This document shows positions 22,850-38,408 of a stretch of DNA of 39,531 nt, in pieces. The notes under the pieces are model-generated. The model ran no database searches. It was not told the DNA's origin and worked only from the letters and a program-made list of their open reading frames with translations. The position numbers and the translations under genes were made by a program. Every line of letters starts with the position of its first letter. Position 1 is the stretch's first letter. The stretch spans positions 1-39,531 of the forward strand of contig JAQBXL010000013.1 of the NCBI GenBank assembly GCA_027624135.1, written 5' to 3'. Origin of the DNA: Chloroflexota bacterium (lineage in GTDB: Bacteria; Chloroflexota; Dehalococcoidia; Lucifugimonadales; UBA3495).

Positions 22850-24906
22850 ATGGCGAGCCTAGAACCTGCGGCCTCGAAAAGACCTCACCAGCTGATCTCG
22901 CACGGTGACACCCGAATCGATCCCTGGTTCTGGCTGCGCGATGTCAACGATCCGGAAACTTTGGAATATCTCAGAGCCGAGAATGCTTACACCGATGAAG
23001 TCATGGCGCCGGAGGCTGAACTAAAAGAAAGCTTATTTCAGGAGATGCGAGGCCGGATCAAGGAGGACGATTCTACCGTTCCGGAGAAGGAGGGAGAATA
23101 TTTCTACTACGCCCGGTATGAAGAGGGCAACGAGTACCCCATCTTCTGCCGCAAGCATCTATCCTTGGATGCTCCCGAAGCGATCCTTCTCAACGTAAAT
23201 GAGTTGGCGAAAGACCTGGATTATTGCCGGGTTGGCACATGCGAGAATAGCCCAGACCACAAGTGGCTGGCTTATTCGGTGGACACTGACGGGTCCGAGA
23301 AATACACCATTTTCTTCAAGAATCTGGAGACCGGTGAACTGTCAGAGGAGAACATCCCCGTTCCTATTACTCCCTCGAATGGGCCAACGACAGCCAAACC
23401 GTATTCTACGATGTGCTCGACGAGAATCACCGGCCAGTCAAGATATTCAAGCATCGGCTCGGAGATAACCCTTCCGCAGATGGGCTGCTGTACCAGGAAA
23501 TGGACGAGCGTTTCTTTGTCCACGTGGGCAAATCTGCCAGCAAGCGGTTCATGTACGTGGTCGCCGCCAGTAACAACATGGCGGAATGGCATTTCATGGA
23601 AGCGGCTGATCCGGGAAGTGAACTTACGCTGATCCAAGAGCGACGTGAGAATTTTGAATACGATGTTGCCGACCATGGGGACCGTTTTCTGATTCGAAAC
23701 AACGGTGATGGCGCCAAGGATTTCAAAGTTTCAGAAACGTCGATAACGGCGCCGGCATCGGAAAATTGGCAGGACCTGGTTCCCCACGTGTTGGGACGCC
23801 CTATCGGTGGAATGGCAGTGGTTAAAGACTACCTGATCCTTTCGCAACGAACTAACGGGCTGCATCAGATACGGATAATAGAACACGCCACCGGGAAATC
23901 GTTCGACGTGGACTTCGATGCAGAAGACTATGCAGTGTCGATCCAAGAAGGCCGGGAATGGGACACCTCCAGCCTGAGGTTTTCTTACACTTCGCTCACT
24001 ACCCCTTCAACCGTATATGACTACGACATCAGTACCCGCGAGCGCGAGATCAGGAAACAGACCGAGGTGTTGGGCGATTTTTCCGAAGACAATTACCAAA
24101 CCAAAAGGATATCTGCCCCGGCCGAAGACGGCACTCTGATCCCGATATCGCTTCTTTATGCAAAGGATACTCCCCTCGACGGCTCAGCCCCCCTCTATCT
24201 TTATGGCTACGGATCATACGGGATAATCATCGATTCCAATTTTAGTTCAGCCAGGCTCAGCCTCGTGGACCGGGGATATATCTTCGCCGTCGCTCATGTT
24301 CGGGGAGGTATGGACTTGGGATGGGATTGGTACGATGGTGGCAAACTTCTCAACAAAAAGAACACGTTCACAGATTTCATCGCCTGCGCGGAGCACCTGA
24401 TCGAAAAAGACTTCACCGCCAAGGGCGGGATCGTCGCATCCGGTGGCAGCGCCGGCGGGATGTTGATGGGGGCGGTCGTCAACTTGCGCCCCATTCTGTT
24501 CAAAGCGGTCGTTGCAGACGTGCCATTTGTGGATGTCTTGAACACGATGGAGGACGACACCCTGCCTCTGACCACCATGGAATATAACGAATGGGGCAAC
24601 CCTCAAACCAAGATATTCTATGACTACATCAAGTCGTATTCTCCCTACGACAATGTGAAGCCCCACGACTACCCCCATATGCTGATCACCGGGGGCATCA
24701 GCGATCCGCGAGTGACGTATTGGGAACCAGCCAAATGGACCGCGCATCTGAGAGATTCGAAGACTGACGACAACTTGTTACTGCTGAAGATTCACATGGA
24801 CTCTGGCCATGCTGGCGCTTCAGGCAGGTTCAACCGGCTGAAAGAGGTAGCTCTGGAATACGCCTTCATCTTGAAAGTGTTTGGGCTGAGTGAAACGCCT
24901 CATTAA
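22850..24906 (+). pseudogene. Prolyl oligopeptidase (S9A family), frameshifted near 23356-23359
   Basis: First part in the 22850 frame (RPHQLISHGDTRIDPWFWLRDVNDPETLEYLRAENAYT...NLETGELSEENIP), then in the 23413 frame (YYSLEWANDSQTVFYDVLDENHRPVKIF...YGYGSYG...ASGGSAGGMLMGAV...SGHAGASGRF). Confidence 0.88.
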
Positions 24907-24950: not shown

Positions 24951-25871
24951 TTATTGACTGGACAGAAGCATCTGAAGGAGCGCCATTCGGATGGAAAGAC
25001 CGTTTGAGATCTGCTGGAAATAATGTGCCCGGGGGTCGGAGTCGACTTCGGGAGCGATGCTGTCTACCCTGGGGAACGGGTGCATGATAATGGCCCGCTC
25101 GCGGATCAGGCGCAGCATGTCCGGGTCGATGCGAAATGCCTGCCGGGTCGGTCCGTTCTCTGCGGGAGCATACTCCTGGGGTAGATCCGTCTGGTAGACA
25201 ACATCGGCCCGCTTGAGCGCATCATCAAGCTCCGGCCCTGGCCCGTGAATCTCCTGAAATCTCACCTCGTGCCGCCCCAGATATTCCAGCAAGTCTTCGC
25301 CCAAAGGAAGTTCGTTCGGTGAGACCAGCCAAAGCTTGATGCCGGAGTATTTGGCCAGAAAGTAGCATAGTGAGCGGCTGGCCCCGCTATGGGACAGATC
25401 GCCCATCAACACCACCGACACGCCGTCGATGCCGTCTATCGCCCGGTAAATTGTGTAGAGATCCAGCAAGGCCTGCGTTGGATGCTGATCTCCGCCGCCG
25501 GCGTTCACCACCGGGATGGACGAAACGTCAGCCGCACGGTAGACCAGACCAGAATCGGGGTGGCGCAGCACGATCAGGTCGGCGTACTGGTTCACCATAC
25601 TGATGGTGTCTTCGAAATGGCCGGACGACGCGAAGTCGGAGAAAGACTGGGGGTTTTCGGTGGAGATCACATTGCCGCCCAGCCGGTGCATGGCCGATTC
25701 AAAGGAGAGACGTGTTCTGGTGCTAACGGCGTAAAACAAAGAGGCCATGATCCGGCCGCGAAGCTCTTCACTGCCGCCGCGGGCGACGACCTTCTCCATC
25801 TCATCAGCGGCGTCGAACACCTGGGCAATCAGCTTCTTGTCGAACTGCTGTGCTCTAAGTACGTGATCCAT
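24951..25871 (-). CDS. Aspartate/ornithine carbamoyltransferase-family protein, probably not a true ATCase
   Basis: STRTRLSFESAMHRLGG, HPTQALLDLYTI, HPFPRVDSIAPEVDSDPRAHYFQQISNGLSIRMALL. Carbamoyl-phosphate motifs kept; 80s-loop and aspartate-site residues differ. Confidence 0.92.
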   Translation of the reverse strand: MDHVLRAQQFDKKLIAQVFDAADEMEKVVARGGSEELRGRIMASLFYAVSTRTRLSFESAMHRLGGNVISTENPQSFSDFASSGHFEDTISMVNQYADLIVLRHPDSGLVYRAADVSSIPVVNAGGGDQHPTQALLDLYTIYRAIDGIDGVSVVLMGDLSHSGASRSLCYFLAKYSGIKLWLVSPNELPLGEDLLEYLGRHEVRFQEIHGPGPELDDALKRADVVYQTDLPQEYAPAENGPTRQAFRIDPDMLRLIRERAIIMHPFPRVDSIAPEVDSDPRAHYFQQISNGLSIRMALLQMLLSSQ

Positions 25872-25908: not shown

Positions 25909-26889
25909 TCAGCCCGGTAAGATATGCGTTCCCGCTCTGCCAGCCAGCGCTTCCTCAGCCCATTCTAGGCCAGTGATTACCGCCCTCTCTCCGCCGAATT
26001 CTACGAACTGGATGCAACCGATAACCTTGGGCGCCATGCTACCTCGCGCAAACTGGCCTTCTTCAAAGTATTTCCGCGCCTGGGAGGCGGTGATCTCGCG
26101 GATCGGCCGTTGAAGCTCGGTGCCGAAGTCCAGGGACACGGATTCGACATCGGTCAAGATAAGATAGATATCGGCGCCCACGCTCTCCGCCAGCTTTTCG
26201 CCTGCCAGGTCTTTGTCGATCACAGCCTCAACCCTCCGGTAGGAGCCGTCGGGCTCCAGAACCACTGGGATACCACCACCGCCACCAGCTATGACGATGG
26301 CTCCTTGATCGACGAGGGCGCGCAGAGACCGGCGCTCCAAGAGCCTAAGGGGCGCGGGTGAAGGCACCGACCGCCGATATGGCCGGTCGCTGCCCGGATG
26401 GACCTCCATCACCGTATGGCCGCGCTCTTCGTAGCTCTTTTTGCTTCCGGCATCCAAGAACGGGCCGATCGGCTTGGATGACAGGCCAAAATCGGGGTCG
26501 TCTTCACCCACAATGAAATGGCTGACCAGAGTAACCACGTCTCGCTGGATACCTTGATTGCGAAGGATCTTGTCCAACACTTGTTGCAACATAGCGCCGA
26601 TCTGACCCTGGGTCATTCCCACGCAGATATCCAGGGGTTGCTGGGGGATATCCGGTCCTGATTCCTCTTGCTGTATCAGAAGATTGCCTACCTGCGGACC
26701 GTTGCCGTGGGTGATGACAACCCGGCTGCCCGAGCGAATCAGTGGTACAAGTTGCCGGCAAGCCAGCTCCATACTGAGCGTCTGTTGCTCGACTTCACCA
26801 GTGTCGCCCTCGGAGAGAATGGCGTTTCCACCCAACGCGATGACGATCGTCTTCGTGGTCTCAAGCATCGTTCTGGTGGGGATCATCAA
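25909..26889 (-). CDS. Carbamate kinase (ArcC/AllK-like)
   Basis: [97 protein letters not shown]. Actual start may be 26868. Confidence 0.95.
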
Positions 26890-27052: not shown

Positions 27053-28870
27053 ATGGGCGTCGACTATACGTATGCGCGGGGATACAGTGCCACTCCGTTT
27101 CCGCGTTTTGCATCGCCTTTTGGCCATGAGAAACTTCCTTTGCCAATCATCATGCCCTGGTTTGGCCGGCTTTCCCGAACACCGGATGAGCCTGAGCCGA
27201 CCGACGGCCTTACAAAAGACCCCAAGAGAGAATCCAAGCGAGACCCCAAGCGCGCTGACACTGTAGATAACGTGTCTGAAGATGGCGTAAACCCCCGTCC
27301 CTTGCTTGCTTTACGGGGTATCACTAAACGATTCCAGGACCTTGTTGCCAACGACAACATAGACTTGGACGTATACCGTGGCGAGGTCCACGCGGTCCTG
27401 GGCGAGAACGGCGCCGGAAAAAGCACGTTGATGAAGATCATCTACGGCGTTTACCAGCCCGACGCAGGGAGCATCGAATTTGACGGGACCGAGGCTCGGA
27501 TTCAGTCCCCCCGCGATAGCAGGCGCATGGGCATCGGCATGGTGTTCCAGAATTTTGCGCTGATACCCGCCCTGACAGTGGCCGAGAATGTGGCACTCTT
27601 CCTTCCAGATCAAGGCATGGTACTCAGCCGGAAAGTCCTCATCCGGCAGATCTGGCAGGTCTCCGACAGATACAACTTGCATGTGAATCCGTCTGCCCGG
27701 GTAGGCGATCTCACCATGGGGGAACGTCAAAAGGTCGAACTCATCAAGCTGATCATGGCCAAGGCCCAGGTCCTGATTCTGGATGAGCCGACCAGTGTTC
27801 TCGCACCCCACGAAGTGGAAGGCCTGTTTGAGGTCTTCAACGAACTCAGGCGCGACGGGTTCGCGATCGTGTTCATCACCCACAAGATTCGCGAGGTTCT
27901 GTCATCTGCTGACCGAATCACCGTGCTACGGCGTGGGAGAGTGGTGACCAACAGGTCCAGTGAGGGAGTCACGGGCGACGATCTAGTTTCTCTGATGATG
28001 GGCATCGATGTTGAAGCCGTGCCACCAGGAGCCCGCATACAAGATCACATCGAATATGACTCCAAGAAGATTGCTTATCAACGGGTCGCCCACGATATCG
28101 GCGGCGCGGCGGCGATCGAATTCAAAGACGTATGTACCGGTGAGGCCAACGACCCCAGAGGCCTGCACGGGGTGAGTTTTAGTGTCATGCCCGGGCAGAT
28201 GCTGGGGGTTGCAGGCATCTCAGGCAATGGTCAGCAAGAGCTGGGCGAGACTCTGATGGGGATGGTCCGAAGCAGAAGCGGAAGTATCAGCCTAGCCGGT
28301 CAAGACATCAAAGGATGGTCGGTGGCCGATATCCTCGAAGCCGGAGTTAGCTACGTTGCTGAGGACCCCATCAGTATGGCTATGGTGCCGGAGATGCGGG
28401 TGGACGAGAACCTGGTTCTAGGAGAACTCGCCAACTACAGCAACGGCGGAATCTGGTTGGACATCGGCGGTATCAGAGATAAAATCACGGCTGCGCTGAG
28501 TAGATTCCCTCTGCAGTTGGCCGCTCACGGGATGCGGGTAGATAAATTGTCCGGCGGAAACGTCCAGAAAGTGATCCTTGCCCGCGAGATGGAACTTACC
28601 CGCCAGGCGGCCAGCAATCCTAAGGTCCTAATGGCTTATTACCCAACAAGGGGTTTGGACGTTGTGACCGCTGAAACCACCCGACGCCTGATGTTGAATT
28701 ACCGGGATCGGGGAGGCGCCATAGTTCTCGTATCTGAAGATTTGGATGAATTGTTGGCCTTGAGCGACAACATGGTGGTGATGTTTCAGGGCAACATAGT
28801 AGGGGCGTTTCCAACCGAAAATGCCTCAGTTCAAAAGATCGGCATGCTCATGACCGGACAGCAAGAGTAG
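27053..28870 (+). CDS. ABC transporter ATP-binding protein with two ABC domains (BMP/nucleoside-importer type, YufO/NupO-like)
   Basis: [45 protein letters not shown], second domain [15 protein letters not shown] and [15 protein letters not shown]. Start uncertain (27053 or 27152); the ORF-track start 26684 overlaps carbamate kinase. Confidence 0.9.
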
Positions 28871-28873
28871 CCA

Positions 28874-29932
28874 GTGCAATACCAGAGCACACTACGTCAG
28901 GCGCAAGGGCTCGCCACCACGATAACCACTCCCCCGATTGCACGGTCTCTTCTTGCCATAGTCTTCGCGTTCTTGGTTTTCGCCATATTCATCGCGATCA
29001 TCGGGCGAGACCCGGTGGAAGTTTACTCCAAGATGTTTGAGGGGACGCTAGGAAGCCGAGTAGGCCTCAGCGAAGTCGGAGTCAGGATGATTCCGTTCGT
29101 CTTAACCGGTCTGGCAGCTTCGATCCCCGCCCGGGTCGGCCTGATCAATGTTGGAGGAGAGGGCCAACTGTATATCGGGGCCTGGGCTGCTACTGGAGTG
29201 GCCCTGTACGTCGATCTCGGGACAATATGGCTGATGTTGCCCGCGATGGCGGTTGCCGGTTTTTTGGGTGGCGCGATCTGGGGCGGGACCGCAATCTTGT
29301 TGCGGCATTGGAGAAACGTCAACGAAGTCATATCCACCCTTCTCTCCAACTATGTTGCGATCCTCTTCGTCGATGTGTTTGTTTTTGGGGCCTGGAAAAA
29401 CCCCACCGGGTTCGGCTACCCCTATACTTCAAACTTCGAGTTTGAATCCATTTTGCCAACCATAGCCGATACCCGGCTGCACCTGGGATTGGTGCTTCCG
29501 GTCGTCGGAATCATAGCGACCTATCTGTTCCTCAGCCGAACCAGATGGGGCGCCAATATGCGCGCAGTCGGCGGCAATCCAGACGCGGCACGCCGGCGCG
29601 GAATCCCCGTGCTTCGCTATATCATCATCGCGATGCTAGTCGGCGGCGGGTTAGCAGGTCTTGCCGGCATGAGCGAAGTTTCGGGCATCCAGCACCATCT
29701 TCGGCCCGGAATATCCAATAACCTCGGCTTTATGGGCTTCCTCGCCAGTTGGATGGCCAATCACAATCCGATCGCCCTGATCGGCGCCTGTTTCCTGATC
29801 GCTGTGATTGTCGTCGGCGGTGATGTTCTTCAATTTAGCGGCAACCTGCCATCCGCGGCGACGTTGATTCTGATTGGCTTAGTCCTCTTCTCTGTCTTAG
29901 GGTTCCGCAAGTTGGAGCGAAAGATCGAATGA
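28874..29932 (+). CDS. ABC transporter permease (nucleoside/BMP-type, YufP-like)
   Basis: VGVRMIPFVLTGLAASIPARVGLINVGGEGQLYIGAWAATGVAL; WRNVNEVISTLLSNYVAILFVD; GTG start 4 nt after the ATPase stop. Confidence 0.92.
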   Translation: MQYQSTLRQAQGLATTITTPPIARSLLAIVFAFLVFAIFIAIIGRDPVEVYSKMFEGTLGSRVGLSEVGVRMIPFVLTGLAASIPARVGLINVGGEGQLYIGAWAATGVALYVDLGTIWLMLPAMAVAGFLGGAIWGGTAILLRHWRNVNEVISTLLSNYVAILFVDVFVFGAWKNPTGFGYPYTSNFEFESILPTIADTRLHLGLVLPVVGIIATYLFLSRTRWGANMRAVGGNPDAARRRGIPVLRYIIIAMLVGGGLAGLAGMSEVSGIQHHLRPGISNNLGFMGFLASWMANHNPIALIGACFLIAVIVVGGDVLQFSGNLPSAATLILIGLVLFSVLGFRKLERKIE

Positions 29933-30852
29933 GCGATATCTGGCTGGTGTTAGGCGGTACGTTGACCGGAGCGGTGGGCCCTGGAATCTCGGTCTTGTAC
30001 GCTACCTATGGAGAGCTGATCACCGAGAGGGCTGGAAGGATCAACCTGGGGACTGAAGGCTCCATGCTGATGGGGGCTTGCTTTGGCTTCATGGCCACCG
30101 CGGAGACAGGCTCGGCAACTGTTGGTGTATTTGCGGGTATGGCTGCCGGTAGCGGATTGAGCCTGATTCTGGCTTACCTGGTTATTTACCGCGACACCAA
30201 CCAGCTTGCGACCGGGTTCGCCCTAACCCTATTCGGGGCTGGCATCACCGCCTACGCCGGCAGAGGTTACGTGGACAGCACCATCGGGGGATTAAATCCG
30301 ATCGCCATCCCGCTTCTGTCGGAGATCCCGAAACTCGGCGAAGCTCTATTTCAGCAAGACATCCTGGCCTACATCGCTTATGGACTTGGGCCTCTGCTGT
30401 TTGTGGGACTGCACTACACCCGAACGGGCTTGAGTCTCAAGGCGGTGGGGGAAAGCATCAGCGTGGCCTACGCAGCTGGACGAAATCCCCGCGTGATACA
30501 GATCGCGGCGATCGCAGCAGGCGGCGCATTAGCCGGACTGGGCGGGGCCCAGCTTTCCCTGGGTCTAACCCACACCTGGTCGGAAGGAATGACCGTAGGC
30601 CGCGGCTTTATCGCCGTTGGACTGGTAATCTTCGCCATGTGGTCCCCGCTGCGGGCAATGGTCGGAGCGTTCTTGTTTGGTGGCGCGATCGGCCTTCAAC
30701 TACAGCTTCAAACCGTCGGGGCGCCAGTGTCGCCTTTCATATTAGACATGCTGCCCTACTTGATAATCCTGTTTGTAATGGCCCTTTGGAGCCGAGCCTC
30801 GGCTAGAGCCATGCCCGAAGGATTGAAGGGGGTTTTAAGGGCAAACACTTGA
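29929..30852 (+). CDS. ABC transporter permease (nucleoside/BMP-type, YufQ-like)
   Basis: ATYGELITERAGRINLGTEGSMLMGACFGF; 4-bp ATGA overlap with the upstream permease. Confidence 0.92.
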   Translation: MSDIWLVLGGTLTGAVGPGISVLYATYGELITERAGRINLGTEGSMLMGACFGFMATAETGSATVGVFAGMAAGSGLSLILAYLVIYRDTNQLATGFALTLFGAGITAYAGRGYVDSTIGGLNPIAIPLLSEIPKLGEALFQQDILAYIAYGLGPLLFVGLHYTRTGLSLKAVGESISVAYAAGRNPRVIQIAAIAAGGALAGLGGAQLSLGLTHTWSEGMTVGRGFIAVGLVIFAMWSPLRAMVGAFLFGGAIGLQLQLQTVGAPVSPFILDMLPYLIILFVMALWSRASARAMPEGLKGVLRANT

Positions 30853-30968: not shown

Positions 30969-32303
30969 TTGTATAACCGGATTAAGAATCTATCATTGTT
31001 TTCCAGCTTGTTTACCCGCTCCAGTAGGATCCTGATTGGAGCCCTCATGCTCGTGGCCGTTCTGGCCCTGGCAGCGTGTTCGAGTGACCCGACCGCAGCG
31101 CCAACGTCCACCAGCGCCCCTCAACCGACCGAGAGCAGTCCTGGATCGGACTCTGGGTCCGTCACCGCGACCAGTCCCTCCAGCGCCGACTTGGCCGGAG
31201 GCTCCACGGAAGTCTTTCTCCAGGGATTTGAGGATGCCGCCGCCGGAAGCCCGTTCCGTTCGACATCTGAGTTCGCTGCAGCAGCCAAGCCCCTGCCAGC
31301 CGGTGAAAAACTGAAGATTGGATTCATCTTCGTCGGCTCCCAGAAGGACTTGGGCTACAACCAGGCTGCGGCGGAAGGAAGCCAATATCTGGAGCGCGTC
31401 TTCGATGACATCGAGATACTGCGTTCGGAAAACATACCGGAGACTGCCGATGTCCAGGCGGTGGAAGAACAGATGATTCGCGATGGCGCAAGCATCATCT
31501 TCGCTACCAGCTTCGGGTACTCTGGTCCGACAAAAGAGATCATAGAGAAACACCCCGACGTCATGTTCCTCCACATGGGTGACGTAGAGGCGTTCGAGAA
31601 TTATGGGGCATTCTTTGGCAACATCTGGCAATTAGAGTATGCTGCAGGCCAAGTTGCAGGCGCCACATCAAAGACCGGAAAGCTGGGTTTCATCGCTGCG
31701 TTCCCAATACCGCAGACCCTGCTGAACGTGAACGCTTTCCACCTGGGAGCCCAGTCGGTCAACCCCGATGTTGAGACTACTTTCGTGTTGACCAGCAGTT
31801 GGTGCGACCCGGCCAAGCAAGCGACCGCGGTCCAGGCCATGGTTGACGCCGATATCGATGTTCTTACCCAGCACCAGGACTGCACCAAGACCATCGTAGA
31901 GGCAGCGGAACGCGCTGGTATCTTCGTATCGGGCTACCATCAAGACGCCAGCCCCGCCGCACCCAACGCCTGGCTGACCGGCGCTGCGTGGAACTGGGGG
32001 CCGGTCTACGCTGAGATCGTCGCAGAGATCAGGAAAGGAACATACAAGAGCTCGGTAATGTTCCAAGGATTGGACGCTGGCTGGGTTCAGCTTTCCCCAT
32101 TCGGTGATTTCCTAGACGCTGACGTAAAACAAACGGCTCTGGATACGGTTGAGTCGTTGAGGACTGGATCATTCAAGCCCTTTACTGGACCGATCAAAGA
32201 CCAAGACGGAGCGATTCAGATCGCCGATGGCGTAGTCCCGACCGATGCTGAACTTCAAGGCACAGGTTACTTGCTCGAAGGCATCACCGGCAGGACCAAC
32301 TAA
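30969..32303 (+). CDS. BMP-family ABC transporter substrate-binding lipoprotein
   Basis: Lipobox LALAAC; LKIGFIFVGSQKDLGYNQAAAEGSQYLE; FGYSGPTKEIIEKHPDVMFLHMGD; GQVAGATSKTGKLGFIAAFPIPQTLLNVNAFHLGAQSVNPDV. TTG start after AGGAGG. Confidence 0.93.
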   Translation: MYNRIKNLSLFSSLFTRSSRILIGALMLVAVLALAACSSDPTAAPTSTSAPQPTESSPGSDSGSVTATSPSSADLAGGSTEVFLQGFEDAAAGSPFRSTSEFAAAAKPLPAGEKLKIGFIFVGSQKDLGYNQAAAEGSQYLERVFDDIEILRSENIPETADVQAVEEQMIRDGASIIFATSFGYSGPTKEIIEKHPDVMFLHMGDVEAFENYGAFFGNIWQLEYAAGQVAGATSKTGKLGFIAAFPIPQTLLNVNAFHLGAQSVNPDVETTFVLTSSWCDPAKQATAVQAMVDADIDVLTQHQDCTKTIVEAAERAGIFVSGYHQDASPAAPNAWLTGAAWNWGPVYAEIVAEIRKGTYKSSVMFQGLDAGWVQLSPFGDFLDADVKQTALDTVESLRTGSFKPFTGPIKDQDGAIQIADGVVPTDAELQGTGYLLEGITGRTN

Positions 32304-32403: not shown

Positions 32404-33096
32404 GTGGGCAATACAGTTTCCGCCGACCCTTACGAATGGCCCTACGACGGCAACATCGATCCCAGCCGCACGGCCATGCTCCTCATCGACTGGCAGCATG
32501 ACTTCTGCGGGCCGGGCGGTTACGTGGACACCATGGGATACGACATCTCCATGACCAGAAGGGGAGTTGAGCCGACCCGTAACGTCCTCGAAGCCTGCCG
32601 CCGCATCCCTGGTTTCACCATCATCCACACTAGGGAAGGGCACAAAGCAGACCTGTCAGACTGCCCGCCCAATAAGCTGTGGCGGTCCAAGCAGATCGGT
32701 GCAGGAATCGGCGATGTAGGCCCCTGCGGCAGGATACTTGTGCGCGGGGAACCCGGCTGGGAGATCATCGAAGAACTCGCGCCTCAAGAAAACGAGCCGG
32801 TGATCGACAAGCCAACCAAGGGCGCATTCACGGCCACAGACTTGGACCTGGTTTTGAAAAACCGGGGTGTCACCCATATCGTGTTCACTGGCATCACCAC
32901 CGATGTCTGCGTGCATACGACTATGCGTGAAGCCAATGACCGCGGCTACGAGTGCCTACTGTTGGAGGACTGCACCGGCGCCACCGACGAGGGAAATTAC
33001 CTCGCTGCCCTAAAGATGATAAAGATGCAGGGCGGAGTGTTTGGAGCGGTGTCCAATTCCAATGATTTCATCAACGCGGTCAGTCAACAAAGTTAG
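32404..33096 (+). CDS. Isochorismatase-family cysteine hydrolase, biuret-hydrolase (BiuH)-like
   Basis: DPYEWPYDGNIDPSRTAMLLIDWQHDFCGPGGYVDTMGYD, LWRSKQIGAGIGDVGPCGRILVRGEPGWEII, TGITTDVCVHTTMREANDRGYECLLLEDCTGATD; Asp/Lys/Cys triad present. Confidence 0.92.
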   Translation: MGNTVSADPYEWPYDGNIDPSRTAMLLIDWQHDFCGPGGYVDTMGYDISMTRRGVEPTRNVLEACRRIPGFTIIHTREGHKADLSDCPPNKLWRSKQIGAGIGDVGPCGRILVRGEPGWEIIEELAPQENEPVIDKPTKGAFTATDLDLVLKNRGVTHIVFTGITTDVCVHTTMREANDRGYECLLLEDCTGATDEGNYLAALKMIKMQGGVFGAVSNSNDFINAVSQQS

Positions 33097-33107: not shown

Positions 33108-34616
33108 ATGGATACCCGTACCAGTTTCCGGCAGGCGGTCCAAGATGCACACGAATATCATCCTGATGTCGTAGGGCGCAGACCAGCATTTATCTCGAGT
33201 GTCGACCGCATGACCAAGGGCCAGAGGCGCGACGTTCGAGCTTTGCCCCCGAGCGCCCAGCCGGGTCGCCGCGGACCGGTGTCAGAGGCGGGACGCCTGA
33301 TGGCGGAAGGCTCCACCTCCGCCGTCGATCAGATTCAACGCGCCTTGGAAATCATCGGCCGCTTACAGCCAGAGCTAAACGCATTCGCTCATATCGACTC
33401 CGAGGCTGCCTTGATCGCGCAAGCAGAGGCGTTGGACGCAGAGAAAGCGTCGGGCAAGATCAGAGGCCCACTTCACGGCATACCCGTGTCCATCAAGGAC
33501 ATAATCCACGTTAAGGGCATGCCAACCAGCTCCGGCTCCAAAGTCATGGCAGGGTTCATGCCTCAAGAAGACGCCACCGTGGTGCGGCTCTTGAAAGAGG
33601 CCGGGGCGATCATCGTCGGCAAGGCCCAGACCCACGAGTTCGCCCTGGGCGTCACCACCCCCCAAAGCCGGAACCCGTGGGACACCAGCCGGGATCCAGG
33701 CGGCTCCAGCGGCGGGTCGGCCATCTCCGTGGCGACGGGAATGAGCCTGTTAAGCGTAGGCACGGACACGAGGGCGTCTATCAGGGTGCCAGCTTCACTG
33801 TGCGGCACGTTAGGCTACAAACCAACCTACGGACTGGCTTCCACCGATGGGGTGGTGACTCTGTCTTGGAGTATGGACCACACCGGGCTGATGGGGCGGA
33901 CTAGCGAAGACGTGGCCATCTTGATGAACGTCTTGCAGGGAGTGGACCCGAGAGACCCGGGCACCTTGGACCGCTCCGACGACGACTACACCGGCTACCT
34001 GTTCAAAGACGTCACCGGCTTTCGGGTCGGACTGGCGGTAGAGGCCCTTGAAGGCGCAGACCCTGAATCTTTGCGCACGTTCGAGACTTGTATCGAAAAG
34101 CTAAAGTCGTTGGGTGTGGAGGTCGTTGAAACCAAGCTGCCATCGGCGGACGACTTTCGCCTTTGCAACAACCTGGGCCTGATAATCAGCCGGGTGGAGG
34201 CTGCGGCTTACCATACCGCCTTCCCTGACGCCGGGCCCAAGTACATCACCCAGGTATTTGAACAACTGGACGAAGCGGCCCAGGTGAAAGCCATCGATTA
34301 CATCAACGCTCAGCGGTTCAGGTCGGAGTTCCGGGAGCGCATGCTTGCCGAACTGCAAGGGTTTGACGCATTCATCATGCCGACCACCCTGGTGCCCGCT
34401 GTCAAAGCCGAAGACACCGAGCAATACCTGACCATCCTCTCTAAGAACTGTATCCCCTGGAGCATGATCGGCTTCCCAGCGTTGTCGGTGCCGGCTGGCC
34501 TGACATCGGGCGGCCTTCCTGTGGGGGCTCAAATGGTGGCCGCCCCGTTCGACGACGGGATAATCCTGGCTCTGGCATCAGCGTTGGAGTCGGTAACAGA
34601 AGACCTACGGCCTTAG
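33108..34616 (+). CDS. Amidase (amidase signature family; possibly AtzE/AtzF-like specificity)
   Basis: GPLHGIPVSIKDIIHVKGMPTSSGS, RDPGGSSGGSAISVATGM, GTDTRASIRVPASLCGTLGYKPTYG; RBS GGAGG before ATG. Confidence 0.93.
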   Translation: MDTRTSFRQAVQDAHEYHPDVVGRRPAFISSVDRMTKGQRRDVRALPPSAQPGRRGPVSEAGRLMAEGSTSAVDQIQRALEIIGRLQPELNAFAHIDSEAALIAQAEALDAEKASGKIRGPLHGIPVSIKDIIHVKGMPTSSGSKVMAGFMPQEDATVVRLLKEAGAIIVGKAQTHEFALGVTTPQSRNPWDTSRDPGGSSGGSAISVATGMSLLSVGTDTRASIRVPASLCGTLGYKPTYGLASTDGVVTLSWSMDHTGLMGRTSEDVAILMNVLQGVDPRDPGTLDRSDDDYTGYLFKDVTGFRVGLAVEALEGADPESLRTFETCIEKLKSLGVEVVETKLPSADDFRLCNNLGLIISRVEAAAYHTAFPDAGPKYITQVFEQLDEAAQVKAIDYINAQRFRSEFRERMLAELQGFDAFIMPTTLVPAVKAEDTEQYLTILSKNCIPWSMIGFPALSVPAGLTSGGLPVGAQMVAAPFDDGIILALASALESVTEDLRP

Positions 34617-34631
34617 GCAGGATCTTCGACA

Positions 34632-35597
34632 TTGCCTCAGACAACACGATCCAAGCGGCCCAAAGACCGTATCGGCGGCTCTCCCGTGGTCACCCTTGCC
34701 GGCTCAAAGGCAAATTGCTATCTCACGACGCCTGGTTTTTCGGGGCAGGTGATCTCCGTGGGAAGTCAATCTGCCTACATCAGAACCGACGATGACAACA
34801 TCCTGGCCGCCTGCCGGTTGGACCAACAGCCCCATCCCCGATCTTTCCTAACCGACCTGAGATCCTTGAACCTCCAAGAGGGCATGAAAGTGTGGGTTGA
34901 AGACAGCCAACTGCGGTTCTCCGGTGAACTCGCAATTCCCTTGAGGGATTGCCAGGTCTGGAATCGGGAACGGCTTGAGCGGTCAGACACCGCGCCGATC
35001 CAACAGTTCCGATCCCGTTGCTCTGAGTTGATGCAGACGACGTCTGAAATACACCGTGGCGAAAACCTTGGATTGGCTCTTTCATATCTAGCGAACAATG
35101 GGGATACCACAAGCCTGCCAACCGATACCTCTCCTTTGGTAGCCGCCGGAATCGAGCAGATCAGGAGATTGATTCCTCTCTGTCGATCTGGGGATTTGGG
35201 ATCCGTCCTGCGCAACGCGGAGCAACTCATTGGACTTGGCCCTGGACTTACCCCTTCCGGCGATGACTTTATCGGCGGTTTCCTTTTCATGGCATACCAT
35301 CTTAGTTCCGCTTATCCCTCAGAGTTAGAGTGGAACGTCGGCGAAGCCGAGATGTTCCTGTTGCGTTCGGAATCGAAGACCAGTCGAATCAGCTTTGCTT
35401 TGTTGACCGACTTGGCCGGAGGACAAAGCCACGAGTCACTCCACGACTTGGTTGACGGACTCATGTCCCGAACCCAGGATTTTGACGCTGCCGCTCTGGT
35501 GCGCCGGGTGACCGAGATCGGACACAGTTCTGGCTGGGATATGTTGACCGGCATGGTCGCGGGTACACTCCCGGTTATGCGCCGGGCTTGGGCCTAA
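34632..35597 (+). CDS. DUF2877 domain protein (AllH/YlbF-like, oxamate carbamoyltransferase-associated)
   Basis: LIGLGPGLTPSGDDFIGGFLFMAYHL motif; position directly upstream of DUF1116 and FdrA. TTG start uncertain. Confidence 0.85.
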   Translation: MPQTTRSKRPKDRIGGSPVVTLAGSKANCYLTTPGFSGQVISVGSQSAYIRTDDDNILAACRLDQQPHPRSFLTDLRSLNLQEGMKVWVEDSQLRFSGELAIPLRDCQVWNRERLERSDTAPIQQFRSRCSELMQTTSEIHRGENLGLALSYLANNGDTTSLPTDTSPLVAAGIEQIRRLIPLCRSGDLGSVLRNAEQLIGLGPGLTPSGDDFIGGFLFMAYHLSSAYPSELEWNVGEAEMFLLRSESKTSRISFALLTDLAGGQSHESLHDLVDGLMSRTQDFDAAALVRRVTEIGHSSGWDMLTGMVAGTLPVMRRAWA

Positions 35598-35607
35598 GGA
35601 GTAGCAA

Positions 35608-36858
35608 ACGATCGATATCAAAGAAAAAATTCAGGCCGCCAACACCGAGGCATTCAACCGCATAGTCGCCGCTGATCCAATCCTCCTGGACATCTTGCCA
35701 GCGGGAGAGGTCGTCCCCAGCTTGGCAGACCGTATGGTTTTACATTCCGGACCTCCGGTGGACTGGGACCATATGAGCGGCGCGCAACGTGGCTCGGTCA
35801 TCGCGATCACGATCTTTGAAGGATGGGCCGATAGCCCCGAGAGCGCCAAAGATCTGCTTTCCAAAGGTGGGGTGAGGTTCGACCCGAACCACCACCATAG
35901 CGCGGTGGGTCCGATGGCTGGAACCATCACAAGATCGATGCCGGTCTACGTGGTGGAAAACCGGACCTCTGGCAACCGGGCTTATTGCCGATTGGTCGAG
36001 GACCGCCAGCAATTCGGGGATTTTAGCGAAGGGGCGATTGACGGACTTCGCATGTGGCGTGACGTGTGGGCGCCCTCGCTGGGGCGCGGTGTTCGGCATA
36101 TGGGCGGTTTGAGCCTCAAGCCAATCATTACCAAGGCCCTACAGATGGGAGATGAGCTTCACAACCGGCCCAATGCGGCCAGCTCTATCTTTGCTGGCGC
36201 TATGGCTGTTCCGATGATCGAAGCAGGGGTGCCAACCTCTGATCTGACCAGCACCCTCTCCTATATCTCGGGCCACGACCTGCTATTTCTCGGTCTCGCC
36301 ATGGCCTCCGCCAAATCGGCCGCTGACGCCGCCCGGGGGATCGAATACTCCACTGTTGTCACGGCGATGGCCCGCAACGGCTACGAATTTGGGATCAACG
36401 TAAGCGGCCTGGATGGGGAATGGTTCACAGCGCCAGCGCCGTCCATCGACGGCCTGTATCTGCCCGGTTACGGCGAGGGAGACGGCGGGTTTGATATGGG
36501 AGACTCTGCGATCACCGAGACTGTTGGCTGGGGCGGGTTTGCCCTCGGTGGAGCTCCAGGGATACTGTCTCTCGTGGGCGGCACACCCGAAGAAGCGCTG
36601 AATTACAGCCGCGAGATGCGGGAGATCACAACGGGCCTCAGCCCCGACTATACTATTCCGGCCTTGGATTTTGAGGGAACTGCGGTCGGGATCGACATTA
36701 GAAAGGTGGCTCAGACGGGCATCTTGCCCATCATCGATACCGCGATCGCCCACAAGGAGCCTGGGCACTCGATAATCGGCGCCGGACTGGTGCGCCCACC
36801 AATGGCCTGTTTCCACGGCGCGCTCAGAGCGTTCGCGGCCAAGTACGGATTGGGGTAA
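35608..36858 (+). CDS. DUF1116 domain protein (AllG/YlbE-like, oxamate carbamoyltransferase-associated); non-canonical start likely
   Basis: LHSGPPVDWDHMSGAQRGSVIAITIFEGWAD, VGPMAGTITRSMPVYVVENRTSGNRAYC, GDSAITETVGWGGFA, IAHKEPGHSIIGAGLVRPPMACF. The frame extends upstream of the TTG at 35695 to about 35608. Confidence 0.9.
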   Translation, partial: TIDIKEKIQAANTEAFNRIVAADPILLDILPAGEVVPSLADRMVLHSGPPVDWDHMSGAQRGSVIAITIFEGWADSPESAKDLLSKGGVRFDPNHHHSAVGPMAGTITRSMPVYVVENRTSGNRAYCRLVEDRQQFGDFSEGAIDGLRMWRDVWAPSLGRGVRHMGGLSLKPIITKALQMGDELHNRPNAASSIFAGAMAVPMIEAGVPTSDLTSTLSYISGHDLLFLGLAMASAKSAADAARGIEYSTVVTAMARNGYEFGINVSGLDGEWFTAPAPSIDGLYLPGYGEGDGGFDMGDSAITETVGWGGFALGGAPGILSLVGGTPEEALNYSREMREITTGLSPDYTIPALDFEGTAVGIDIRKVAQTGILPIIDTAIAHKEPGHSIIGAGLVRPPMACFHGALRAFAAKYGLG

Positions 36859-36869
36859 GCAGGGAACCT

Positions 36870-38408
36870 ATGATTACAGAGTCAGCATTGCTCCAGAATC
36901 GGTATTTCGACTCCGTGTTCCTGATGCGGGTTTCCAAGCGCCTGAGCGGTCAGCCGGGCATCGAACAAGCCGCGTTGGTCATGGGCACGCCCAGGAACAT
37001 CCAGATTCTGGCCCAGGCCGGTTACGATGGCATTGATGCCTTGGGGGCCTCCAGTAACGATCTAGTGGTTTCTCTGAGAGCGGATTCGGTGGAAGATGCT
37101 CGCACACTGCTTGATTCCTTGGATCAATGGCTAGTTCGCGATTCGAGCCGCCCAACGGCGCAAACTGTCCGTTCTTTAGACCAGGCATTGACCCAACAAC
37201 CGGCCTCCAACCTTGCGGTGATCTCGGTGCCTGGAGAATTCGCCACCAGAGAAGCCCGGCAGGCCCTTGAACGTGGCCTCAACGTGTTCCTGTTCAGCGA
37301 CCACGTTTCCATCGAAGACGAACTGTCGTTGAAGCGGCTGGCATCGCAAAATGGACTGCTGTTGATGGGCCCGGATTGCGGCACTGCCATCCTTAGCGGC
37401 ATCGGCTTGGGATTCTCGAACGAAGTCCGGCGAGGCCACATCGGGGTCATTGGGGCATCGGGCACGGGAACCCAGGAAGCGACTTCACTCGCCCACCGTT
37501 GGGGCTCGGGAATCTCCCACGCCATCGGAGTCGGCGGAAGGGACCTATCCGACGGCATCGGGGCAATCTCCACGTTTCAGGCGATGGACGCCCTGGAAAA
37601 AGACCCCAAAACTTCGGTGATACTTCTGGTTTCCAAACCGCCGGGGACCGCCACTCAGGTGCAGGTCAACGAACGTTTGGCGGATTGCTCCAAGCCGGTG
37701 GTCACTTGCTACCTCGGCAGCAAAGACGAAGCGTCACCGGACCTAAAGAACGTCACCACCACTCACAATCTCGACGAAGCTGTTACCGCCGCCATCAGAT
37801 TAGCTGGCGGGATTCGTGTCGACGAAGATAACGCGGCTTCTCTGGAGTCTATCCAGCGGGAGCGCGGGAAACTCAGGGCCAGCCAGGCCTTCGTGCGCGG
37901 GGTCTTTGCTGGCGGCACGTTGTGTTACCAGGCCCAGCAGGTACTCCGGGATGCCGGTCTCCCAGTCCATTCCAATGAGCCGCTGGAAAAGGGCATGGAA
38001 TTGCCGGACTCTTCATTGAGTCTCGGACACACCTTGGTGGACATGGGCGCCGACGAATACACGGAAGGCAAACCCCATCCGATGGTCGATTCAACTCAAC
38101 GCGTCCAACGGATCTTGTCCGAGGCAGAGGACCCCCAGGTAGCGGTGATACTCTTGGATTGCATCTTGGGCCACGTCGCTGCCGACAATCCGGGCGGAGA
38201 CATAGCTCCGGCAATCTCAGAGGCTAAGAGAACTGCTCGACAGAGGGGGGATCATCTAATCGTAGTTGTTTCCATCTGCGGAACCGACCTGGATCAACAG
38301 GGACTAGACGCGCAGATCGATCTGCTGGAAGAAGCCGGAGCTATCGTGTTCACTTCAGGGCTTCAGGCCGCCCGGTTCGCGGCGCAATTAGTGTCTGAAA
38401 GGGGATAG
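36870..38408 (+). CDS. FdrA-like protein (AllF-like, acyl-CoA synthetase-related fold), main segment ending at in-frame TAG
   Basis: LMGPDCGTAILSGIGLGFSNEVRRGHIGVIGASGTGTQE, GISHAIGVGGRDLSDGIG, VHSNEPLEKGM, DDQ-type C-terminal CoA-ligase-like region. Confidence 0.9.
   Translation: MITESALLQNRYFDSVFLMRVSKRLSGQPGIEQAALVMGTPRNIQILAQAGYDGIDALGASSNDLVVSLRADSVEDARTLLDSLDQWLVRDSSRPTAQTVRSLDQALTQQPASNLAVISVPGEFATREARQALERGLNVFLFSDHVSIEDELSLKRLASQNGLLLMGPDCGTAILSGIGLGFSNEVRRGHIGVIGASGTGTQEATSLAHRWGSGISHAIGVGGRDLSDGIGAISTFQAMDALEKDPKTSVILLVSKPPGTATQVQVNERLADCSKPVVTCYLGSKDEASPDLKNVTTTHNLDEAVTAAIRLAGGIRVDEDNAASLESIQRERGKLRASQAFVRGVFAGGTLCYQAQQVLRDAGLPVHSNEPLEKGMELPDSSLSLGHTLVDMGADEYTEGKPHPMVDSTQRVQRILSEAEDPQVAVILLDCILGHVAADNPGGDIAPAISEAKRTARQRGDHLIVVVSICGTDLDQQGLDAQIDLLEEAGAIVFTSGLQAARFAAQLVSERG

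Follow-up and report, generated by a model that had tools for sequence, protein, structure and literature searches.

The window (the whole stretch of 39,531 nucleotides analysed here) contains a gene for a protein that resembles aspartate transcarbamylase (ATCase) and that we call T2. We propose that T2 is a PyrB-derived catabolic carbamoyltransferase with an acceptor other than aspartate, and that its carbamoyl phosphate is fed to the carbamate kinase (CK) encoded next to it; we give this reading a probability of about 0.68. According to this proposal, a ureide (R-NH-CO-NH2) would be supplied by the transport and hydrolysis steps of the gene cluster, T2 would split it with phosphate into an amine or amide and carbamoyl phosphate, and the adjacent CK would turn carbamoyl phosphate into ATP, NH3 and CO2. 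The cluster would then have two transcarbamylases, AllFGH and T2. Both the carbamoyl transfer by T2 and its catabolic direction are what we infer. The genes of the cluster are the following:

24951..25871, minus strand: T2, ATCase-like protein and PyrB paralog, 306 aa, ATG at 25871
25909..26889, minus strand: CK, 37 bp upstream of T2, start codon uncertain
27152..28870, plus strand: ABC transporter ATPase of the nucleoside/BMP type, divergent from CK-T2, start inferred from the length of its relatives
28874..29932, plus strand: ABC permease 1
29929..30852, plus strand: ABC permease 2
30969..32303, plus strand: BMP/PnrA-family substrate-binding protein (Pfam Bmp, E 1e-42)
32404..33096, plus strand: biuret amidohydrolase, a BiuH-like isochorismatase (NCBIfam BiuH, 396 bits, cut-off 370)
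33108..34616, plus strand: GatA/AtzE-like amidase (Pfam Amidase, E 5e-99; PDB matches GatA and 6c62)
34632..35597, plus strand: AllH-like protein (DUF2877; Pfam AllH, E 4e-21)
35695..36858, plus strand: AllG-like protein (DUF1116; Pfam AllG, E 6e-70; 43% identity to E. coli AllG)
36870..38408, plus strand: AllF/FdrA-like protein (38% identity to E. coli AllF over 504 aa)

Active-site residues and fold of T2

The open reading frame of T2 had been pointed out in an initial annotation of the sequence. We found that it exists and that it lies on the minus strand; the plus-strand frame over 24951-25871 is interrupted by several stops. In an alignment to E. coli PyrB (reference sequence from MG1655, whose residue numbering we use throughout), all motifs quoted in that annotation were recovered. 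T2 keeps S52, T53, R54, T55, R105, H134 and Q137, that is, the carbamoyl-phosphate site. The alignment thus agrees with the earlier statement that STRT and HPTQ are retained, and R105 is kept as well. Also retained are S80, P266, P268 and R296.

K84 and R229 of PyrB hold the carboxylates of aspartate. T2 carries the substitutions E50A, K84S, G166S, R167G, R229D, Q231P, R234Y and L267F. The 80s loop reads SDFASSGHF (K84 to S, with S80 kept), the R167 region LSHSGASR (R167 to G), the 240s-loop region YQTDLPQEY (R229 to D and Q231 to P) and the second motif HPFPR (L267 to F). Thus, the aspartate-binding residues K84, R167, R229 and Q231 are absent, as had been claimed. The loss of R167 is true of the window's T2 but is not a property of its clade, as relatives with 65% and 60% identity keep this residue. 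Beyond the residues listed earlier, the T2 clade has lost E50, E86, G166 and R234.

The initial annotation had named Lys or Arg residues supplied from shifted positions as an argument against its own reading. We looked for such residues in the alignment, and no compensating Lys or Arg is newly conserved in the active-site loops of the T2 group. The Chloroflexota T2 set gains Asp at positions 81 (80s loop) and 229. Since three positive aspartate-holding residues are lost and these acids are gained, the sequence suggests an acceptor that is uncharged or bears an amino or amide group. The motif RxQxER, which is 'found in all known ATCases' (PMC4581275), is destroyed in T2. Together with the missing replacement of Lys or Arg and a canonical PyrB elsewhere in the genome, this supports the earlier view that the acceptor is probably not aspartate; judged from its residues, T2 is very unlikely to use aspartate.

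The NCBIfam model TIGR00670 (asp_carb_tr) gives T2 254 bits at a cut-off of 237, so that automatic pipelines would name it PyrB. An AlphaFold2 model of T2 (pLDDT 91) has the ATCase fold. Its best PDB fold matches are Arabidopsis ATCases, some of them with bound PALA or carbamoyl phosphate (TM about 0.90); when the structures are aligned, 45-46% of the residues are identical. The 50 best listed fold matches are all ATCases. The poorly modelled segment is the 80s loop, with pLDDT < 50 at residues 80-83.

The gene cluster and its coupling to carbamate kinase

The CK is 40% identical to E. coli AllK/YbcF. It scores over the cut-off of PRK12352 carbamate kinase (289 bits, cut-off 266) and under that of NCBIfam arcC (342 bits, E 2e-102, cut-off 358). 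The best PDB match of the BiuH-like protein is 6xjm, 'Biuret hydrolase' (E 4e-112). For the GatA/AtzE-like amidase, none of the NCBIfam amidase models listed reaches its own cut-off; an allophanate/carboxybiuret step is possible. AllF, AllG and AllH are all encoded at 34632-38408, as neighbours of T2. In E. coli, AllFGH acts as the oxamic transcarbamylase (PMC11326118); the T2 cluster thus already encodes one unrelated transcarbamylase-like system. This second, unrelated transcarbamylase and the biuret hydrolase were both absent from the initial annotation. A scan for promoters and terminators gave nothing exceeding shuffled sequences.

Two gene calls in the window deserve a comment. Upstream of the first ATG/GTG/TTG, the AllG frame continues without a stop as far as about 35605 (an open frame of 417 aa), and the AllG proteins of relatives start about 30 residues earlier than the window's first-start call; the true start may thus be a rarer codon, or there may be a sequence error. 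Furthermore, an S9 prolyl-oligopeptidase-like gene at 22850-24906 appears to be broken up into overlapping frames at 22850-23632 and 23413-24906, with a frameshift as the probable cause.

The same genome encodes a canonical PyrB on contig C158, separate from T2, in an operon pyrR-pyrB-pyrC-carA-carB, whose pyrB neighbours were recognised by eye from their sequences. T2 is thus not the housekeeping enzyme, and it lies in a carbamate-kinase operon instead of a pyr gene context. We found CK directly upstream of T2 in three Chloroflexota and in five further loci (L066, L069, L070, L073 and G815), and these clusters also hold AllFGH or an OTC-like transcarbamylase. Within the window's family, T2 was found in 2 of 50 genomes, and CK in these two and in no other (Fisher p = 0.0008), a co-occurrence that rests on two positive genomes in a set of incomplete MAGs. 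AllG is found in 8 of the 50. Two genomes of the window's genus (G007 and G008; loci L186 and L188) contain the whole transporter-BiuH-amidase-AllHGF cluster, with proteins 71-92% identical to the window's (AllH excepted), and have neither CK nor T2 behind it; no carbamate kinase was found in either genome at E 1e-30. Thus, CK and T2 act as one unit that an otherwise complete cluster has gained or lost, which is the best evidence that the chemistry of T2 involves carbamoyl phosphate. The catabolic role tied to CK that was proposed earlier gains support from this co-occurrence and from the CK-T2 adjacency in both Chloroflexota and Desulfobacterota/'Deltaproteobacteria'.

Relatives of T2

A search of the window's family, order, class and phylum (about 850 genomes in all) gave only two close relatives of T2, with 65% (G024; JADFJS010000029, Chloroflexi B43T3L11) and 60% identity (G368). 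Both lie in the same colinear gene set as in the window (transporter-BiuH-amidase-allH-allG-allF-CK-T2), and all three proteins have in common the loss of K84 as well as R229D, Q231P and L267F. These three Chloroflexota proteins and four from Desulfobacterota/'Deltaproteobacteria' (L066, L069, L070 and L073; hereafter the Delta set) make up the seven members of clade A. The support of this clade is 95/95, and 82/85 without the active-site columns; its nearest neighbours in the tree are canonical PyrBs. S52, R54, T55, R105, H134 and Q137 are conserved in 7/7 members; T53 is altered (N/I/M) in the four Delta members, which keep the other three residues of STRT. P231 and S166 are invariant, and position 229 is D in the Chloroflexota set and Q in the Delta set; the window's protein is the only member without R167.

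The gene order differs among the Delta loci. BiuH and amidase are missing from L070 and L073, which have transporter-allHGF-CK-T2, and L066 and L069 have OTC-like transcarbamylases ahead of CK-T2; G815 carries AllF-CK-T2. The cluster of L066 (4572-15819, Syntrophaceae) encodes three carbamoyltransferases: it contains an IclR-type regulator, an OTC-like protein, a hydantoinase-like protein, a canonical PyrB, CK, the altered ATCase, a TRAP transporter and an SsnA-like amidohydrolase.

In the plasmid collection, no close relative of T2 was found, and the five PyrB-like plasmid proteins that we inspected are all canonical. Two conjugative plasmids, of Aminobacter SR38 (L085, NZ_CP062120.1) and Citrobacter freundii (L086, NZ_CP042536.1), carry AllF-AllG-AllH-CK sets with a ring-opening amidohydrolase, the latter's set lying between IS26 copies. 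The canonical PyrB of several Desulfobacterota is shortly followed by CK (L116, L119, L122-L126). Another PyrB-like protein occurs in the window's order (L011, L021, L023 and L026); it has SF[LI]T for STRT and DPMQ for HPLP, and its carbamoyl-phosphate site is thus altered too.

Further matches were found in 14 of 299 genomes in the Ignavibacteria search and in 8 of 297 in the Acidobacteriota search, and from these clade B emerged. Q231 is replaced by D, E or R in all of these matches except L150, the weakest Acidobacteriota match and a canonical PyrB; K84 is usually gone. Most clade-B loci have the order OTC-CK-T2 (with YgeW instead of OTC in L071), and the neighbours often include an ornithine aminotransferase and a cyclic-2,3-DPG-synthetase-like GTPase; next to T2 of L140 and L167, we recognised no carbamate kinase. 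The support of clade B is 100/99 and remains 100/99 without the active-site columns. The best tree separates clades A and B, but the AU test does not reject a single origin (p 0.13 and 0.19). The carbamate-kinase-linked ATCase paralogs form at least one, probably two, clades.

Two gene arrangements in clade B recall other pathways. A recurrent operon (L151-L162, L164 and L168) comprises the cyclic-2,3-DPG-synthetase-like GTPase, OTC, CK, the altered ATCase and the ornithine aminotransferase, with not all members present in each genome; it looks like a citrulline/ornithine catabolic unit plus an unexplained second transcarbamylase. The cluster of L071 (566-10924, Ignavibacteriae) comprises ygfK-like, xdhD-like, PLP lyase, ygeY, ygeW, CK and altered ATCase genes. 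It resembles the reductive uric acid cluster of PMC12507026 and may hold a second ureido-cleaving transcarbamylase.

To describe the losses, we used as a reference the 74 columns whose invariance across 31 canonical PyrBs is 93% or higher. This canonical set was picked by K84, R167, R229 and Q231, so that invariance at these positions is partly by construction; E50, E86, G166, E233, R234 and L267 were not used in picking it. Clade A has lost nine of the 74 columns (E50, K84, E86, G166, R229, Q231, E233, R234 and L267), all of which lie around the acceptor site, and clade B has lost three (K84, D162 and Q231). The changes in T2 are not due to chance: canonical PyrBs show little or no variation at the positions concerned, and a clade covering at least two phyla has most of the changes in common. 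We estimated dN/dS values of 0.08 (L070/L073), 0.10 (L159/L162) and, with dS near saturation, 0.10 (window/L062). T2 is under purifying selection and is not decaying.

Possible functions and known systems

Candidate ureides for T2 are biuret, allophanate, oxalurate and ureidoglycolate/allantoate-type compounds. We also considered that T2 might be tied specifically to biuret breakdown; this is weakened by the two Delta loci that have AllFGH-CK-T2 and lack both BiuH and amidase. A bolder combination, which we regard as a long shot, is that the acceptor is uncharged and never described for the family (e.g. urea or carbamate), that biuret or allophanate phosphorolysis yields ATP, and that PyrB paralogs were recruited behind CK more than once.

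Several points count against a catabolic carbamoyltransferase. A second transcarbamylase is not strictly needed, as AllFGH may by itself provide carbamoyl phosphate. A T2-type protein stands behind CK together with OTC, YgeW or AllFGH, which could mean a general role as partner of CK or in handling carbamoyl phosphate and not a separate substrate for each cluster. T53 of the carbamoyl-phosphate site is altered in the Delta set. The main rival explanation is that T2 binds carbamoyl phosphate for CK or for another transcarbamylase (by channelling, protection or regulation), performs no transfer, and has an acceptor site that drifts freely as nothing binds to it. This would suit both the association with three kinds of transcarbamylase and the joint presence or absence of CK and T2 in the family. 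However, the changes in the acceptor site do not resemble free drift, as P231, S166 and D229/Q229 are constant and R167 is kept except in the window, and the catalytic H134 and Q137 are kept throughout. To our knowledge, a binding-only role has no citable precedent among transcarbamylases. We consider this explanation unlikely.

The other explanations are less probable still. T2 might act as a ureidoglycine-type transcarbamylase that converts allantoate and Pi to ureidoglycine and carbamoyl phosphate, as Rxyl_2847 does; the PyrB-like ancestry, the CK linkage and the purine-ureide setting (AllFGH) would agree with this. Yet H[ST]LP, K106* (= K84), S258 and K261 of these enzymes (PMC4581275) are absent from T2, where the window has HPFP, SDFASSGHF and TDLPQEY, and neither allantoinase nor another allantoin gene was recognised in the T2 cluster, which makes such an activity rather improbable. 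A working ATCase that takes its aspartate-binding charges from other positions, and perhaps makes N-carbamoyl-aspartate from catabolic carbamoyl phosphate, would explain the score over the TIGR00670 cut-off and the ATCase fold of the model. It is highly improbable given that R229, Q231, K84, E50 and R234 are all lost, that the active-site loops hold no new conserved Lys or Arg and that the genome has a canonical PyrB. Lastly, several active-site losses, and that of R167 in the window copy only, could point to a decaying or functionless duplicate; this is largely refuted by the full-length open reading frames, a dN/dS of about 0.1, the restriction of the losses to the acceptor site and an operon conserved across phyla.

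If T2 is indeed a catabolic carbamoyltransferase, the pair CK-T2 would be a marker of organisms that obtain ATP from ureides or polyureas, and its presence or absence in similar clusters of one family would be a natural experiment on energy harvest. The CK-linked ATCase paralogs span Chloroflexota, Desulfobacterota, Ignavibacteria and Acidobacteriota with an acceptor-site signature of their own in each clade, and are thus a compact set of testable new specificities.

When comparing T2 to known transcarbamylases, we could set two groups aside. An ornithine or putrescine carbamoyltransferase was rejected because T2 has neither DxxxSMG (or the PTCase 230s loop) nor HCLP, and OTC models score far under their cut-offs. 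The knotted transcarbamylases (AOTCase, SOTCase, YgeW) were rejected because the matches of YgeW models to T2 cover no more than roughly its first 100 residues (26-27 bits; cut-offs 500 and 453). As these matches are partial and the best listed fold matches are all ATCases, there is indirect evidence that T2 lacks a knot loop or extended 120s loop. T2 shares with PyrB the fold and the carbamoyl-phosphate site (SxRT, R105, HPxQ); unlike PyrB, it has no K84, R167, R229, Q231, E50 or R234 and is encoded with CK and not with pyr genes.

AllFGH with AllK (PMC11326118) interconverts a ureide and carbamoyl phosphate, lies in the same cluster as T2 and has the same coupling to CK; however, AllFGH shares no sequence relationship with the PyrB family, and E. 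coli allFGHK has no PyrB-like gene. Clusters of bmpA-nupABC, biuH, a gatA-like gene and allFGHK occur in nitrifiers and ammonia oxidisers (PMC12625717). They have transporter, biuret hydrolase, amidase, allFGH and CK as in the window, and the parts of that source available to us mention no ATCase-like gene. In the literature on the OTC-CK operon context and Chloroflexi, we found nothing relevant beyond this source.

A PyrB-derived catabolic transcarbamylase next to CK is already known: Rxyl_2847 is a UGTCase that derives from PyrB, phosphorolyses allantoate and is adjacent to CK (PMC4016543, 2013). UGTCase and the other 'pseudo-ATCases' (Barba et al. 2013, PMC4016543) occur in clusters for nitrogen-ring catabolism and act by catabolic phosphorolysis. 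Like them, T2 is a PyrB paralog with SxRT and HPxQ intact and RxQ destroyed, and it adjoins CK in a catabolism cluster while the true PyrB lies elsewhere. Unlike UGTCase, T2 has AllFGH and BiuH and not allantoinase as neighbours. The equivalents of UGTCase K106* and R189 are both lost in the window's T2, with that of R189 kept in its relatives. Compared by motifs alone, the published pseudo-ATCase pairs (HPLA with AIA-type, H[ST]LP with GX[SC], HSLP with VXP) differ from HPFP with DLP in the window, from HPFP or HPLP with QIP in the Delta set and from HPLP with [RHQ]-[IL]-[DER] in clade B. As T2 lacks the UGTCase motifs, we do not file it under UGTCase; we infer that it is a catabolic transcarbamylase of the pseudo-ATCase kind, which would work like UGTCase.
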